From Luteolibacter rhizosphaerae (GTDB lineage Bacteria; Verrucomicrobiota; Verrucomicrobiia; Verrucomicrobiales; Akkermansiaceae), in assembly GCF_025950095.1 (NCBI RefSeq), contig NZ_JAPDDR010000003.1, positions 1-64,000 of the forward strand: a stretch of DNA of 64,000 nucleotides, written 5' to 3'. Of this stretch, positions 7,717 to 47,382 are shown one piece after another. Made by a program: the position numbers and the translations under genes. The notes under the pieces were generated by a model. That model saw nothing but the letters and a program-made list of their open reading frames with translations, did no database searches and was not told the DNA's origin. Position 1 is the first letter of the stretch; each line of letters starts with the position of its first letter.

Positions 7717-8012
7717 TTCCCGAGATTCAGGATCTGCTCGAGGATCGCCAGATAGTCCTCGAAAGCCTTCCGGCCTTCCTTCGTGAGAATATAAAGTGTC
7801 TGCGGCCGTCCATCGCCCGTGAGCTTCTCCCCGCTGATGTAGCCGGCCTGCTCCAGCGTGCGCAGATGGGTGATCAGGTTGCCATCGCTCATCTCCAGCT
7901 CGAGCTTCAGATCCTGGAACGGCCACGCGTTGGTCCGCGACGCGAGCAAGGTCATGATGCCGAGCCGCGCCTTTTCGTGGATGGTCTTGTCCAGCTTGGA
8001 AAAGTCGATCAT
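7713..8012 (-). CDS. Winged-helix transcriptional regulator (HTH_34/MarR-like)
   Basis: 99 residues, the usual size of single-domain winged-helix regulators. The sequence has the typical order: IHEKARLGIMTLLASR (helix 1), FQDLKLELEMSDGNLITHLR (helix-turn-helix), then a beta wing GEKLTGDGRPQTLYILTKEG and a C-terminal dimerisation helix. This matches the PF13601 group, which often represses the membrane genes it sits with. It overlaps both neighbours by four bases, so the operon (8650 to 4785) is probably translated as a coupled unit. Autoregulation is likely but no operator was recognised. Confidence 0.88.
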   Translation of the reverse strand: MIDFSKLDKTIHEKARLGIMTLLASRTNAWPFQDLKLELEMSDGNLITHLRTLEQAGYISGEKLTGDGRPQTLYILTKEGRKAFEDYLAILEQILNLGK

Positions 8013-29947: not shown

Positions 29948-30309
29948 CGCTGCTGGAGATCAGGATCAGACAGCAGGGGAGGAAAAAACAGGAAGTTTTC
30001 GGGAAGGAGGGAAGACCGGGGAAAGAAAAGAACCACGGAATACACGGAACACACGGAAGTCCTCCCAAGGATGGGGAGTTGAACCGCGGATAGCGCGGAT
30101 GACGCGGATCCGGAACATGATGAGAGTCGGGGCGTTGTCGCTCTGCCTTCTCATCCGTGGAAAGAACGTGGGCCGTGCGAGCGGTAGAAAGGGCGTCCTT
30201 TCAAGGGCGACTTTATCGCTCTCCACACCGCGTGATCGTTCGCAGCTCGCTCGAAAGCGGCGATGCTCGCCGCAGTCCGAAAGAGCCTGCGGCTCCAAGG
30301 GGGACACTT
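29948..30309. repeat. Intergenic repeat cluster (copy C), no gene seen
   Basis: The region upstream of the sigma-factor gene contains aaccacggaatacacggaac at 30031-30050, running on to 30059. It also contains ccgcggatagcgcggatgac at 30084-30103 plus gcggatc. Both share words with the repeats at 15533-15660. The remainder (30120-30309) shows no credible coding frame; open frames there have atypical composition. The sigma-factor promoter probably lies within 29933-30030. Confidence 0.65.
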
Positions 30310-31776
30310 CTAGGCGATGACTTCCTTCACGACGCGGGAGGGCTTGGTGACGTTCGAGAGACGCTGCTCCAAGCCTTGGAAAGGGTAGGTGAGCTTCTTG
30401 TGGTCGTAGCCGAGGAGGGTCATGAGCGTGGCGTGGAAATCGTGGGCGCTGACCTTATCGATGGTGGCTTCATAGCCAACCGGATCGGTCTCGCCATGGG
30501 AGTAGCCGGGCTTCACGCCGCCGCCAGCCATCCAGAGGGTGAAGGCACCGGTGTGGTGATCGCGGCCGACGTACGGCATTTCGACACCGCCGCGGTTCTC
30601 GCGCATGGGGGTGCGGCCGAACTCACCGCTCCAGACGACGAGGGTTTCTTCCAAGAGGCCGCGTTGCTCGAGATCCTTGAGGAGCGCGGCGATCGGCTTG
30701 TCAATTTCGTTGCACTTGTCGACGAAGCCTTGCTTGAGGTCGGTGCCCTTGTCGGTGCCGTGGGAATCCCAGCCCCAGTCGAAGAGCTGGATGAAGCGGA
30801 CACCGCGCTCCGCTAGGCGACGGGCGAGCAGGCAGTTGTTCGCGAAGGATTCCTGTCCGGGCTTGGTGCCGTAGAGTTCGTGCGTGGCGGCGGATTCCTG
30901 TTTCAGATCGAAGGCATCCGAGGCGTGAATCTGCATGCGGAAGGCCATCTCGTATTGCGCGATGCGGGTGACGGTTTCCGGATCGCCGACTTCGGTGGCG
31001 ACGCGTTGATTCAGATCGTTCAGGGCATCAAGCGTGCGACGGCGGAGTGCTTGGGAGACGCCATCGGGGTTCGAGAGATAGAGGACGGGCTCGCCTTGGG
31101 AGCGGCATTGAACGCCCTGATAAACGCTGGGGAGGTAACCTGCACCCCACACCGACTTGCCCGCGTCCGGATTCTTGCCGCCGGAGGTGAGGACGATGAA
31201 GCCGGGCAGATTCGAGTTCTCCGAGCCAAGCCCGTAGGTGGCCCATGCCCCGGCAGAAGGGGAGCCGGGGATCTGGCTGCCGGTATGCAGCAAGAGCTGC
31301 GCGGGGCCGTGATTGAACTGATCCGTCCACATCGATTTGATGAAGCAGACCTCATCGATCATCTTCTCAAAATGCGGCAGGCGATCGGAGATCCACTGGC
31401 CGCTCTGCCCCGCCTGATGGAAGGGAAACTGCGAGCCGAGCATCTTCGGAACGCCTTGGATGAAGGCAAACTGCTTACCCTCCAAGAACTCCTTCGGGCA
31501 CTCCTTGCCGTCGAGCTTCACCAGCTCCGGCTTGTGATCGAAGAGCTCGAGTTGGCTCGGCGCACCGGCCATGTGGAGATAGATCACGCGCTTCGCCTTC
31601 GGGGCGAAGTGCGGGAGATCCGGCAGCAAGGGATTGGCTGGATCCTTCGCCAGGGTCGATCCCGAGGCCTGTGAGGCAAGCCACATACCACCGAGACCGA
31701 TTGAAGAGTCCCGCAGGAAGTGGCGCCGAGTTACGAACTGGGCGCGATCGTGGCGGAGCTGCTGGAAGAGATTCAT
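30310..31776 (-). CDS. DUF1501 (sulfatase-like fold) secreted protein
   Basis: 488 residues. The N-terminus carries a Tat-like signal (TRRHFLRDSSIGLGGMWLAS) typical of DUF1501 proteins. Conserved family elements are RVIYLHMAGAPSQLELFDHK, QFNHGPAQLLLHTG, WGWDSHGTD, VVWSGEFGRTP, GRDHHTGAFTLWMAGGG and the late Asp/His pair DFHATLMTLLG. The fold belongs to the alkaline phosphatase/sulfatase superfamily. Family members occur almost always beside PSD1 cytochrome proteins, as here (164 bases downstream of that gene), and probably act with them in the periplasm. The biochemical reaction of the pair is unknown. Confidence 0.9.
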   Translation of the reverse strand: MNLFQQLRHDRAQFVTRRHFLRDSSIGLGGMWLASQASGSTLAKDPANPLLPDLPHFAPKAKRVIYLHMAGAPSQLELFDHKPELVKLDGKECPKEFLEGKQFAFIQGVPKMLGSQFPFHQAGQSGQWISDRLPHFEKMIDEVCFIKSMWTDQFNHGPAQLLLHTGSQIPGSPSAGAWATYGLGSENSNLPGFIVLTSGGKNPDAGKSVWGAGYLPSVYQGVQCRSQGEPVLYLSNPDGVSQALRRRTLDALNDLNQRVATEVGDPETVTRIAQYEMAFRMQIHASDAFDLKQESAATHELYGTKPGQESFANNCLLARRLAERGVRFIQLFDWGWDSHGTDKGTDLKQGFVDKCNEIDKPIAALLKDLEQRGLLEETLVVWSGEFGRTPMRENRGGVEMPYVGRDHHTGAFTLWMAGGGVKPGYSHGETDPVGYEATIDKVSAHDFHATLMTLLGYDHKKLTYPFQGLEQRLSNVTKPSRVVKEVIA

Positions 31777-42472: not shown

Positions 42473-42621
42473 CGGAATGAGAATCGCCCGTTCCGGCAGG
42501 ACGGTCAATTCACGAGGATGTAAGGCCTGCTCCGGAGCCCTATCTCCGGAAACCCGCTCTCGAGTTGCACGGAACCCCTTGTTAGAGAGTGCCCTACGAG
42601 GCCTTCGCGCTTCGTCCGCGC

Positions 42622-42752
42622 AAACGAAAGGGGCCGCACACTCGTGCGGCCCCATCATTTCGTCATGAAATCAGTCGAGGGTTACCAGCCCGCCGACAGG
42701 TGTAGGTATGGCAGAATCCGGCAAGTCTGTCTTGTCCCTAAGATTTGGGACA
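42622..42752 (-). ncRNA. Repeat unit 1: candidate structured RNA
   Basis: Read on the minus strand: 5' hairpin tgtcccaaatcttagggaca, a linker with ggcgggctggtaacc, a small hairpin atttc-atgac-gaaat, and the 3' hairpin ggggccgcac-gagt-gtgcggcccc (42653-42630) followed by tttcgttt. No convincing ORF is seen; the longest frame in one unit, TTG-started at about 42721, is 17 codons and is not kept in frame in the other units. Whether it is an independent sRNA, a leader element of glcD or a mobile repeat is unknown. Confidence 0.35.
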
Positions 42753-42774
42753 CCCCGGGAAAGCCTTCTCCCGG

Positions 42775-42909
42775 AAACGAAGCGGGGCCGTGCACTCGCA
42801 CGGCCCCGATCATTTCGTCATGAAATCAGTTTCGGGGGTTACCAGCCCGCCGACGGGTATAGGTATGGCAGGATCCGGCAATCCTGTCTTGTCCCCAAGA
42901 TTTGGGACA
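42775..42909 (-). ncRNA. Repeat unit 2: candidate structured RNA with covarying terminator stem
   Basis: Same layout as unit 1. The 3' stem is ggggccgtgc-actc-gcacggcccc on the plus strand (42784-42807). Compared with units 1 and 3, stem pairs 8 and 9 change from C-G and A-T to T-A and G-C, with both strands changing so pairing is kept. The 5' hairpin is extended to an 8-bp stem (cttgtccc / gggacaag). Downstream tail is weaker (gcttcgttt). Confidence 0.38.
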
Positions 42910-42933
42910 AGCCCCGGGGGAGGACCTCCCGGC

Positions 42934-43063
42934 AAACGAAAAGGGCCGCACACTCGTGCGGCCCCATCATTTCGTCATGAAATCGGTCGAGGGTTACCAG
43001 CCCGCGGACAATGAAGGAATCGCACAATCGGCGGGATTTGTCTTGTCCCTAAGATTTGGGACA
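42934..43063 (-). ncRNA. Repeat unit 3: candidate structured RNA, promoter-proximal copy
   Basis: First copy in the minus direction, directly after the response-regulator gene. It keeps the 5' hairpin (43063-43044), the atttc-gaaat hairpin and the GC hairpin (42965-42942, outermost pair mismatched) but has a diverged middle (gacaatgaaggaatcgcaca). The tail is ttttcgttt. Its terminator may also end the two-component transcript. Confidence 0.38.
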
Positions 43064-43075
43064 CAGACCTAACCC

Positions 43076-43089: not shown

Positions 43090-43106
43090 AAAATCACCCC
43101 GAAAAC

Positions 43107-43799
43107 TCAGGACAAATCGAGCAATCCGCGGCGAATTGCCTCACTCACGGCGGCCGGAAGGTTGCGCACGTGAAGCTTATCGAAGCAGCGCTTGATGTAT
43201 TCCGTGACCGAATGCTGGCTGAGGCCGAGCTTGTCCGCGACCTCCTGGCGGGTGAGGCCCTTGGCGGAAAGCTGGAGCACCTCCGACTCGCGGGCGGACA
43301 GCGTTTCGGCGGCAGGAATCGGGCTGAGCTGGCGGAAAGTCTGCAGGATCATTCCCGCGATCTTCGGGTCCAAGGGGGTGCCTCCGGCCAAGACTTCCTC
43401 CAGCGTCGCGATCAGGCGGGTGGCGCTGCCGGCTTTCACCAAGTAGCCGTGGGCCCCCGCTTCAAGAGCGGCGAAAACCTTCGCCTTGTCGGTGAAGGCG
43501 GTCAGCACGAGCACCTGCACGAGAGGAAGAAGTTCGCGCACTTTCTTGATCCCCTCCACGCCGCTCATGCCGGGCAGACCGAGATCGGAAAGAACAAGAT
43601 CCGCCTCCAAGCCGCCACGGATCGCCTCGATGGCGTCCTCCATGGTGGAGAACTCCCCGACGCAGCTATAGCCGCGCTCGGTCAGCACCATGGACACGGA
43701 CTCGCGGAAGTCGGCGTGGTCCTCGATCAGGATCAGGCGGATCGCCTTCTTGTCGGTGGCGGCTTTGGTCTGGAGGTCTCCGGTCAACGGGTCACTCAT
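43107..43799 (-). CDS. NarL/FixJ-type response regulator
   Basis: 230 residues from the ATG at 43799; an eight-residue upstream extension is unsupported. The receiver domain (about 20-140) has acidic pair ED at 26-27, the phospho-acceptor Asp72 in VLSDLGLPGMSG, Thr in VLVLTAFTD and Lys in GYLVKAG. The LuxR-type helix-turn-helix is LSARESEVLQLSAKGLTRQE plus DKLGLSQHSVTEYIKRCFDK. The gene starts 24 bases after the kinase stop, so the pair forms one transcript. It is immediately upstream of the tandem repeat array. Confidence 0.95.
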   Translation of the reverse strand: MSDPLTGDLQTKAATDKKAIRLILIEDHADFRESVSMVLTERGYSCVGEFSTMEDAIEAIRGGLEADLVLSDLGLPGMSGVEGIKKVRELLPLVQVLVLTAFTDKAKVFAALEAGAHGYLVKAGSATRLIATLEEVLAGGTPLDPKIAGMILQTFRQLSPIPAAETLSARESEVLQLSAKGLTRQEVADKLGLSQHSVTEYIKRCFDKLHVRNLPAAVSEAIRRGLLDLS

Positions 43800-43823
43800 A
43801 CGACCAATCCGGCAGCACCGCAA

Positions 43824-45878
43824 TCACGGCTTCGGCTTGGCGAGCCGCCCGGTTTTCTTGCCACCCAAGGGGATGTCCAGATCGAGCACGGTGCCTTTTC
43901 CCGGCTCGCTGTTGACCTCGAAGCCAGCGCCCAAGGCCTCCACGCGCTTTCGGAGCGCCCGCAGCGTGGAGGGCCGCGCCATCTTCTCCGGGGTGATCCC
44001 ACTGCCGTCATCACTCACGCGGAGGCGGAAGTGCGCCGGATCGCACTCGATGTGGATGGCGACCTGCGAGGCATTCGCATGGCGCAGGATATTGTGCAGG
44101 GCCTCGCGGAAGAAGAGGAAGAGGTGGCGATTGGCATCGTCCGACATCTCGCACTGCCATGCCGCCTCGTTCGCGGTGAACTTCCAATCGTGCGGCTCCA
44201 GCATGATCGAGCAAGTCTCCCGCAGGTGCTCGACGGTGGCGATGCGGTGATCGCCCTGCGGACGGAGCAGCCACACGATGTCCCGCACCGCGCTGACGGT
44301 CTCCGCGGCGATGCGCTGGATCCGCTTCAGCTCCTTCGAAGGACCGGCATGGCTTTCCGCGAGGTCCGCGAACATCTGGATGCTGCCAAGGTTACTGCCC
44401 ACCTCGTCATGCAGGTCGCCGGCGATGCGCTCCCGCACTTCGACCAACTGGCGCTTCTCCCGCAGGCGGTAGCGGATCGGCAGGGCCACCAGCAGGACGA
44501 GCCCGAGGCCGCCGAAGATCCCGGCAACGATCAACCCGCCGCGCCGCCACAGGGCAACGGTCTCGCGGATCTCCTCACGCAGGGCATGCTGCCGCTGCTC
44601 CAGGGAGAGACGGTGGCCTAGGGCGAGAAGCCACTCGCGCTGCGAGACGATCTTCCCATCCGGGCCGAAGCCATCGGTCAAGCTGGCGGCGCTCCAATAT
44701 TGCGAGCCAGAGCCGAAGACCGTGCCCATGCCGCCAGCCGCCCGGACGGGCGCACCAATGGCGATATTCTTCTCTCCATCCAACACCTCCACCTCGCTAA
44801 GCGCGGCGAAGGCCGGGTAGTTTTCAAAGGCCTTCCAGAGCTGGGTAACCTCGACCCTCACCCGCTGGCCGCTGCGGCGATCGAAGGATACGACCACGGG
44901 GTTGTGTCCCGGGTTCCCGATCTCCATGGGGGTCTTGGCCCCCGGTTCGGTAGCGGCGGGAGAGCTGGCGGATACCGTGAAGCGCCGGGGGAAGCCGAAG
45001 CCGCTCGGCAGGTCGGACATCGGCCGCTTGGCCGGGAAGAAGCGCAGGCCATCGAACTCACGCACCTGGCCGAGATCGACCTCGATCCAAACCCCTTCGT
45101 TCGCGGTATCCTTCGGCTCGGACATCCAGCCGACATTTTGGTGAGCACCGGCGGGGAGTTCCGGGAGGCCGAGCGTGGTGAGACCATCGACGAGAAATTC
45201 ATTCGCCCACTGCCAGGGAGCCGGCAGTGGGGAGCCGCCGAAGAGCTCGACCACGCTGCCTTGGGCGAGATTCCTGTCTCCGGAGAACGCAAACGCCTCC
45301 GCCCAAGCGTGGACGAAGCTATTCGATACCTCCGGGCTATCCGAGATATCGGGCGCCGGCTTCAGGCTCCGGGCGGAGATCCGGAGTCCTGCCGCCTCCA
45401 TCGGGGGATTCACCGGGAAGATGAAGGGGTGACCGGCTCGGACAGGATCCGCCCAAAGATTTGTCTCATCCGCAATGCGGGCGATCGGCTTGTCCTCGGC
45501 ATCGAGGAGATCCACCGCGAAAGAATCCGGCATGCCGAATTGGGGTTCCAAACCCTGAACCGCGTAACGTCGAGCCGGGACCAGCGCCACGAGGTCGACC
45601 GGCGACGGAGTGGCAAAACGGATCGTGACCGAGTGGCCCGCCTCCTGATCGGGCTCCGCCTTCAGGTGCAGACTGGCGAAGCCGCCGGTGCCACCCTGAT
45701 CCGCCACCGGAACGAAGGGCAGGGCAGGCAAGGCGGCGCGGATCTCCTCCAGCGACTTCTCCGCCTCCCCCACCCGGCCCGAGAACTGACGGGCGAGCCG
45801 GTAGTCCCAACCGGCCTCCTCTGCTGATAGCCATGATGCCGGGAGCAGGGAGAAAAGCAGGGCAACCAGCTTGCGCAT
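43824..45878 (-). CDS. NarX/DegS-type sensor histidine kinase with large periplasmic domain
   Basis: 684 residues with signal peptide (MRKLVALLFSLLPASWLSAE). A periplasmic region of about 440 residues includes a discoidin/F5_F8-like module (GVWIEVDLGQVREFDGLRFF, NPVVVSFDRRSGQRVRVEVT). One transmembrane helix lies at about 452-475. HisKA_3 follows with His490 in RIAGDLHDEVGSNLGSIQMF, then a HATPase_c domain with N box FREALHNILRHANAS and G box SDDGSGI. Discoidin-like sensing suggests carbohydrate or surface ligands. It is cotranscribed with the response regulator. Confidence 0.92.
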   Translation of the reverse strand: MRKLVALLFSLLPASWLSAEEAGWDYRLARQFSGRVGEAEKSLEEIRAALPALPFVPVADQGGTGGFASLHLKAEPDQEAGHSVTIRFATPSPVDLVALVPARRYAVQGLEPQFGMPDSFAVDLLDAEDKPIARIADETNLWADPVRAGHPFIFPVNPPMEAAGLRISARSLKPAPDISDSPEVSNSFVHAWAEAFAFSGDRNLAQGSVVELFGGSPLPAPWQWANEFLVDGLTTLGLPELPAGAHQNVGWMSEPKDTANEGVWIEVDLGQVREFDGLRFFPAKRPMSDLPSGFGFPRRFTVSASSPAATEPGAKTPMEIGNPGHNPVVVSFDRRSGQRVRVEVTQLWKAFENYPAFAALSEVEVLDGEKNIAIGAPVRAAGGMGTVFGSGSQYWSAASLTDGFGPDGKIVSQREWLLALGHRLSLEQRQHALREEIRETVALWRRGGLIVAGIFGGLGLVLLVALPIRYRLREKRQLVEVRERIAGDLHDEVGSNLGSIQMFADLAESHAGPSKELKRIQRIAAETVSAVRDIVWLLRPQGDHRIATVEHLRETCSIMLEPHDWKFTANEAAWQCEMSDDANRHLFLFFREALHNILRHANASQVAIHIECDPAHFRLRVSDDGSGITPEKMARPSTLRALRKRVEALGAGFEVNSEPGKGTVLDLDIPLGGKKTGRLAKPKP

Positions 45879-46764: not shown

Positions 46765-47382
46765 TTAGCGACGGCGGCGGATCAGACCCGCCACACCAAG
46801 CAGGCCCAAGAGCACCGAAGCGGACGGCTCCGGAACAGCTACAAGGCCGAGGTTATTGCCATTAACAACGCCAGCGGTGCCCACCACCGTGATTGCCGCC
46901 CCGTTCGCGATCGTGGCGTTCGTGCTACCTGCAGCAGCAACGTTTGCAGGGAAGGCAGTAGGAGTGGTCAGCCTAAAAATCGAGACATGAGTGGATGTAG
47001 CAATAGTAGCACCGTTACCAACCAAGAAGTAAATGGGCTTCAGGTTGAACACGTTCGGATCTGCACCACCCAAGGAGGTGAACTGACCGGTGATCGTGCC
47101 CTGAGTTGCACCAGAGGTGGGGGCAGTAAGCGTAGCGAAGGTATCAAAAGATGCGATCGCAGCCTGTAGAGACTCAGTGCTGGTGATCAGAGGCTCCTCC
47201 GTCGCTCCCAAAGTATTTGTGAACGTGCCGATGGAGATCGAGTAGCCACCAGCGCTGAGGGCAGTGCCTTCCACCGCGGCGATTACGCCGGGGTTGCCAG
47301 TGCCTCGGATTACGGCAATGGTTGCAGCCTGAGCCGAAGCGATAAGCGACGCGACGCCGATGATTAATGCAAGTGCTTTCAT
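46765..47382 (-). CDS. PEP-CTERM sorting-domain protein
   Basis: 205 residues with signal peptide (MKALALIIGVASLIASAQAA) and a C-terminal PEP-CTERM tail: VPEPSASVLLGLLGVAGLIR followed by RRR, i.e. the Pro-Glu-Pro motif, a transmembrane helix and a basic end. Such tails are recognised by exosortase and send proteins to the extracellular matrix or surface. The middle is a low-complexity, T/A/G-rich beta domain without recognisable activity. The exosortase gene is not in this window. It sits 37 bases after the TIGR02597-type gene and has a close, decayed copy downstream. Confidence 0.9.
   Translation of the reverse strand: MKALALIIGVASLIASAQAATIAVIRGTGNPGVIAAVEGTALSAGGYSISIGTFTNTLGATEEPLITSTESLQAAIASFDTFATLTAPTSGATQGTITGQFTSLGGADPNVFNLKPIYFLVGNGATIATSTHVSIFRLTTPTAFPANVAAAGSTNATIANGAAITVVGTAGVVNGNNLGLVAVPEPSASVLLGLLGVAGLIRRRR

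Follow-up and report, generated by a model that had tools for sequence, protein, structure and literature searches.

A tandem array in Luteolibacter rhizosphaerae that very probably encodes three copies of a new small RNA, with a neighbouring response regulator as likely activator

The genome of Luteolibacter rhizosphaerae carries three direct repeats (positions 42620-43064 of the window, the whole 64,000-nucleotide stretch that we analysed; TRF period 157, 2.9 copies), flanked by two minus-strand genes, one for an FAD-linked oxidase and one for a response regulator. What do these repeats encode, and what might control them? An initial annotation had described three tandem 130-base repeats and offered a multicopy small RNA, a tandem leader element or a mobile repeat as readings. 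The building blocks that it listed are all present: a 10-bp GC hairpin, an ATTTC/GAAAT block, the block GGTTACCAGCCCGC and the palindrome TGTCCC-N8-GGGACA. The repeats are indeed three and in tandem, spaced by 157 and by 154 or 155 bases, and thus by about 155 rather than 130; the unit itself, by model match, is 132-136 bases long and reads as a compact unit of transcription, about 135 bp in all. We conclude that the array very probably consists of three tandem genes of a new small RNA (sRNA) family on the minus strand. The fuller model, in which these genes are switched on by the neighboring NarL/LuxR-type regulator, is likely on the sequence evidence.

Read on the minus strand, each repeat holds the palindrome TGTCCC-N8-GGGACA, AGACA, a variable 17-base stretch, a -10-like hexamer, a hairpin, GATTTCATGACGAAAT, a GC-rich stem-loop and a run of T's, in that order. 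The features of the array and of the adjoining regulatory genes, all on the minus strand, are as follows.

43044-43063, minus: unit 3, putative operator palindrome TGTCCCAAATCTTAGGGACA, from sequence and position profile
43039-43044, minus: unit 3, -35-like AAGACA directly after the palindrome
43016-43021, minus: unit 3, -10-like GATTCC, 17 bp after AAGACA; first and last base differ from CAnnnT
42932-43009, minus: unit 3, predicted small RNA, its start inferred 7 nt past the -10-like box; terminator stem-loop 42942-42965
42890-42909, minus: unit 2, putative operator palindrome TGTCCCAAATCTTGGGGACA; AAGACA at 42885-42890
42862-42867, minus: unit 2, -10-like CATACC; last base differs from CAnnnT
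42774-42855, minus: unit 2, predicted small RNA; terminator stem-loop 42783-42808
42733-42752, minus: unit 1, putative operator palindrome TGTCCCAAATCTTAGGGACA; AAGACA at 42728-42733
42705-42710, minus: unit 1, -10-like CATACC; last base differs from CAnnnT
42620-42698, minus: unit 1, predicted small RNA; terminator stem-loop 42630-42653
43107-43823, minus: response regulator of 238 amino acids with receiver and GerE/LuxR-type HTH domains (Pfam PF00072, PF00196), proposed activator of the three units
43824-45878, minus: histidine kinase (HisKA_3, HATPase_c), proposed partner of the regulator from Pfam matches and abutting gene order

The kinase also has an F5/8 type C match in Pfam, below the cut-off of that family. 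Upstream of the kinase gene lies a gene for a small secreted protein (46765-47382, minus strand), whose C-terminus resembles, by eye, a PEP-CTERM sorting signal.

Three terminators lie in the array, all on the minus strand, and a terminator scan that found four where 0.9 were expected in shuffles placed the fourth, a weaker one, at the regulator stop codon. Each unit thus ends in a GC hairpin followed by a T run on the sense strand, as in an intrinsically terminated sRNA gene, and its possession of its own terminator argues against a tandem leader element. The weak terminator-like stem (43094-43115, minus strand) overlaps the stop codon of the regulator, which may mean that the regulator and the first sRNA are transcribed separately. 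For the window, the predicted RNAs measure 78-82 nt, about 80 nt, and their segments fold with z-scores of -2.75, -4.62 and -4.55; the plus strand of the same segments scores lower still (-3.04, -5.41 and -6.29), so that the strand assignment rests on terminators and promoter and not on folding.

Conservation of pairing across relatives argues for selection on RNA structure, as first proposed from a double stem change between unit 2 and units 1 and 3. That change is visible in the sequence, and the same stem, the Rho-independent terminator, varies on both sides at several pairs across relatives. In 20 rows from one clade, seven pairs of the RNA part changed on both sides, and the covariation score, for a structure derived from the very sequences scored, was 0.205, a value that no shuffle out of 500 attained (0.096 in shuffles); 'further pair types', one of five covariation measures, stood at 12 versus 13.0 in shuffles, with 492 of 500 as high. 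Covariation and the units' own minus-strand terminators together support a multicopy small RNA. The 5' hairpin has a clade-specific sequence and loop, with compensatory changes present. Leaving the terminator aside, the RNA is most constant in UUUCAUGAC, most of which is unpaired in the window RNAs; one group of the second genus in which the RNA occurs carries UUUCAUAAGGGAUUGUGA in its place. A small peptide encoded by the RNA was rejected on inspection by eye, as the frame of ATG ACG AAA closes after a few codons in many units and is not preserved from clade to clade.

How widespread is this RNA? Rfam 15 gave no match above its gathering score over the array and only a tRNA in the window, the sole match over the array at E <= 1 being a plus-strand one of 15.1 bits, where the gathering score is 39; the statement that the repeats belong to no known family holds to that extent. 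By DNA similarity the array's one match in its home genome was itself, and 21 of 144 genomes, home included, held at least a piece. From the fetched loci we cut 31 units, 30 of which were aligned into a covariance model, R1. Searching relatives with it, as had been proposed, did find homologs beyond the locus. In a sample of 195 family genomes R1 matched 45 with a threshold of E <= 0.01, and 40 with E < 1e-6; these 40 fall into two genera only. Of the home genus, 17 of 18 genomes are among them, the remaining one being 61% complete. Among 288 genomes of the order, 26 matched at E <= 1e-5, in those same two of 50 genera. The RNA family was thus found only in the Luteolibacter/Haloferula group and relatives, two genera of one Verrucomicrobiota family, and the records that carry both units and the palindrome pattern include, by name, Luteolibacter marinus, Haloferula luteola and Haloferula sp. 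BvORR071, besides numerous MAGs under the title Akkermansiaceae. In the literature on sRNAs of Luteolibacter and of Verrucomicrobia or Akkermansia, and on response regulators of Akkermansiaceae, this RNA was not described among the matches listed, from a coverage that leaves out most subscription journals.

Upstream of the predicted RNA, the units share a consensus layout in which the palindrome is followed by a -35-like (A/T)GACA, a spacer of exactly 17 bp and a -10-like CAnnnT. Across 78 distinct full units (96 matches gave 79 distinct units, one of them incomplete and dropped), CAnnnT lies at 17 bases in 63, and at any other single offset in at most 5 of 78; by linker clusters, it lies at 17 bases in 52 of 63. 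The start expected 7 bases past the -10-like box is a purine in 47 of the 63 clusters. Two checks on the geometry were made since many units had been picked by palindrome motifs and R1 had seen all columns. Of 99 places found by the model without the palindrome pattern, 97 were re-read from the genomes; 95 of these start with the palindrome, 75 of the 95 exactly as TGTCCC...GGGACA, a conservation that is partly due to how units were chosen, as the first unit sets were picked with palindrome motifs and the model was trained on those. CAnnnT stands exactly 17 bp after (A/T)GACA at 78 of the 95 places, and at any other offset in at most 7. Conversely, sites were found by palindrome pattern only, without the model, in genomes largely shared with the other sets: CAnnnT occupies the offset in 51 of 55 sites from records titled Akkermansiaceae, Verrucomicrobia or member genera versus 0 of 16 from other records, and perfect-stem terminators lie downstream of 46 of 51 full-length sites versus 1 of 14 controls.

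The promoter-like boxes of the home clade depart from this consensus. A sigma-70 consensus scan of the window array found no promoter, and its -10-like boxes (CATACC, CATACC and GATTCC) end in C; the boxes of the two nearest relatives likewise lack the final T. Boxes of this kind would suit a weak promoter that depends on an activator. Given the predicted start, the palindrome would be centered near -44.5, touching the -35 box.

Does the palindrome belong to the RNA or to the DNA? The initial annotation took it for a terminal RNA hairpin, a claim that fares poorly: an operator beside a promoter explains it better, because pair 5-16 is broken in 17 of the 95 model-found places re-read from genomes, both-sided changes occur in 2 of the 95, both copies of a single genome (G014), and promoter-like boxes follow downstream. 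A hand-picked set of 38 rows has one pair broken in 9 and a both-sided change in 1, again G014. We rejected the RNA hairpin as main reading on these broken pairs and the near lack of covariation; the 20-bp palindrome is probably a DNA site. The two copies in G014 (contig C33, L256, L272) read TGCCCC...GGGGCA and CGCCCC...GGGGCA, symmetric changes that would also allow RNA pairing. In the 78 distinct full units the flank before TGTCCC is near random and conservation starts sharply at the palindrome. The 6.2-Mb home genome holds exactly three exact copies, all in the array, and none of a reversed control pattern; this count and the folding scores of the RNA segments set the array apart from chance.

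The copies are dispersed, and tandem in 12 of 53 genomes, as might be expected of a mobile repeat, which the initial annotation had also considered, in this case a non-autonomous one of the MITE or REP kind. Such an origin is highly implausible: a genome carries 1-4 copies only, and in most genomes a unit sits at a constant position next to one gene; both genera share one order of parts; the palindrome stands at one end only, and no inverted ends were seen in a search by eye. Plasmids and phages gave no match, and we rejected an origin in either. The palindrome pattern does recur 11 times on viral contigs (L178-L188), in one shared protein-coding context and without the RNA; this context resembles a gene for a phage DNA cytosine methyltransferase, and the recurrence looks like a coincidence of coding sequence. 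The model matches these stretches at E values of 9e-5 to 6e-4, so hits near E 1e-4 can arise from the palindrome alone, and five weak family hits (E 0.002-0.009; G051, G059, G167, G182 and G245) were therefore left out of the counts.

What, then, would bind the palindrome? Orthologs of the neighboring regulator (at least 80% identity and at least 370 bits) occur in 38 of the 195 family genomes; within the second genus, 34 of 73 have one. Pooled, these make 51 genomes, of which 17 come from the home genus and 34 from the second, and all 51 are RNA-positive. Within the second genus 34 genomes have both, none the regulator only, 2 the RNA only and 37 neither (Fisher 8.5e-19, shared ancestry ignored). 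The RNA lies 6-267 bases downstream of the regulator gene, on the same strand, in 40 of the 51 genomes. Such a copy directly after the gene, with a palindrome able to fold, could be read as the transcribed 3' UTR and terminator of the regulator mRNA, TGTCCC hairpin included, duplicated by chance and lacking a promoter of its own. We consider this very unlikely, since copies elsewhere share the same 5' boundary, the 17-bp geometry is exact, the palindrome hardly covaries and genome G230 keeps the RNA body and terminator with no palindrome, no promoter and no regulator ortholog. Loss of palindrome and promoter in G230 is as expected if the regulator is gone. Genome G258 (contig C75, 4406-5262) has its RNA unit on the other side of the regulator gene, a short way upstream.

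In 10 of the 51 genomes the stretch beside the regulator lacks a unit and the RNA is present nonetheless (in G002, only 357 bases downstream were readable). This separation, and genome G244, which has RNA and palindrome with no regulator ortholog found in its 570-contig assembly, would suit the same sRNA genes under a different transcription factor, the regulator gene being merely a stable neighbor. We judge that arrangement unlikely: every regulator-positive genome has the RNA, even where the two are apart, G230 lacks regulator and palindrome together, and a 20-bp palindrome beside a -35 box is typical of LuxR-type sites. Conservation of the recognition helix, sought as a sign of binding, was no higher than that of the rest of the regulator. 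Paralogs of the regulator occur at 62-64% identity in G002, G013, G014 and G240 (with no closer one in G240) and at 55-56% in G265 and G267.

Taken together, the sequence and the genome comparisons show that four parts are conserved as one unit (the palindrome, a promoter-like segment of fixed geometry, a predicted structured RNA of some 80 nt and a terminator) and that this unit accompanies a NarL/LuxR-type regulator. The best reading, from sequence and by analogy with known systems, would be a two-component system with a multicopy sRNA as its main direct output. We suggest that the adjacent kinase would phosphorylate the regulator, and that the phosphorylated regulator would bind the palindrome as a dimer centered near -44.5 and overlapping -35, a class II activator position, turning on all copies together. 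Multiple copies would give a high dose of a trans-acting RNA, which may pair through UUUCAUGAC, complementary to AUGAAA start regions, or bind a protein via its 5' hairpin. The regulator transcript may in addition use the copy adjoining its gene as its 3' end.

Because UUUCAUGAC is mostly unpaired and complementary to AUGAAA starts, blocking of translation starts through it is plausible. Duplex scores of one RNA's segment against the start regions of the 46 predicted window genes placed a DUF1501 gene first (30309-31776, minus strand; z -3.9, 30 shuffles). We rejected it as a target: of 24 ortholog loci (L189-L212) 14 were used, the window's included, a start was located in 9 (L190, L192, L194, L196 and L201 gave no usable start), and the paired region is kept in 0 of 8 relatives. 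The start regions of kinase and regulator scored no better than shuffles, and no conserved target was found among the 46 window genes and the orthologs of the top candidate.

Three folded units carry a doubled 5' hairpin (L177, of G215, at 1174-1338 and 2338-2502; L115 at 7825-7978), and the two hairpins of one RNA share a loop, GAGG in G215 and GAUG in L115. Such doubling with equal loops hints at a protein partner, and a variant that overlaps our preferred reading would have the RNA act as a protein sponge, its 5' hairpin binding an RNA-binding protein, rather than as an antisense RNA. This variant is possible, if doubtful, given that the hairpin loop differs between clades and that UUUCAUGAC is more conserved in most units, though altered in one group of the second genus. 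CsrA (PF02599) was found neither in the home genome nor in any of the 195 family genomes, with controls positive in 3 of 14 genomes, and we rejected a CsrA sponge on that ground. Hfq (PF17209) was not found in the home genome, the one genome searched for it, with controls positive in 5 of 14.

The regulator, palindrome and sRNA layout has parallels in three known systems. Lux-box promoters carry a 20-bp inverted repeat that overlaps the edge of the -35 and is read by a LuxR-type HTH, and the array has such a repeat and, in its proposed activator, such an HTH; the lux-box system differs in its autoinducer-binding LuxR and protein-coding output. The Qrr sRNAs of Vibrio use Hfq and a sigma-54 regulator; the array resembles them in placing several near-identical sRNAs under one proposed response regulator, and departs from them in its sigma-70-like layout and in a home genome without an Hfq match. 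PMC7911923 counts five Qrr sRNAs in V. harveyi, and describes rsmX-1 and rsmX-2 as tandem sRNA copies. The array shares tandem copies, and the proposed logic of regulator, palindrome and sRNA, with this Gac/Rsm system of the gammaproteobacteria, where, according to PMC4682653 and PMC4950607, the strongest direct sites of GacA/UvrY are palindromes upstream of the sRNA genes RsmX/Y/Z and CsrB/C. The site itself differs, TGTCCC-N8-GGGACA in the array and TGTAAG-N6-CTTACA for GacA/UvrY (as given in PMC4950607), as does its position, further upstream in Gac/Rsm and abutting the -35 in the array. The sRNA sequence is unrelated, the home genome is without a detected CsrA, the three predicted window RNAs contain no GGA motif (some relatives contain GGA), and the array family usually has an sRNA copy beside the regulator gene. 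Given the other palindrome and position, window RNAs without GGA and no CsrA, the array family is not a member of Gac/Rsm, though it would work like it, and very probably represents a new sRNA family.

Small-RNA control has hardly been studied in the bacteria that carry this family. A bolder proposal is that the array belongs to a second, independently evolved global switch from a two-component system to a multicopy sRNA, in a branch of the phylum that lacks CsrA and a detected Hfq; the sRNA genes would be the regulator's only direct genomic sites, and a new RNA-binding protein would recognise the 5' hairpin, which some species double with shared loops. We regard this combination as somewhat unlikely. 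Were our preferred model of regulator and sRNA right, a dedicated kinase-regulator pair would feed almost wholly into one RNA family, bacteria lacking CsrA and a detected Hfq would become open to work on sRNA regulation, and Verrucomicrobiota would hold a convergent counterpart of Gac/Rsm, with regulator, site and RNA set at hand.
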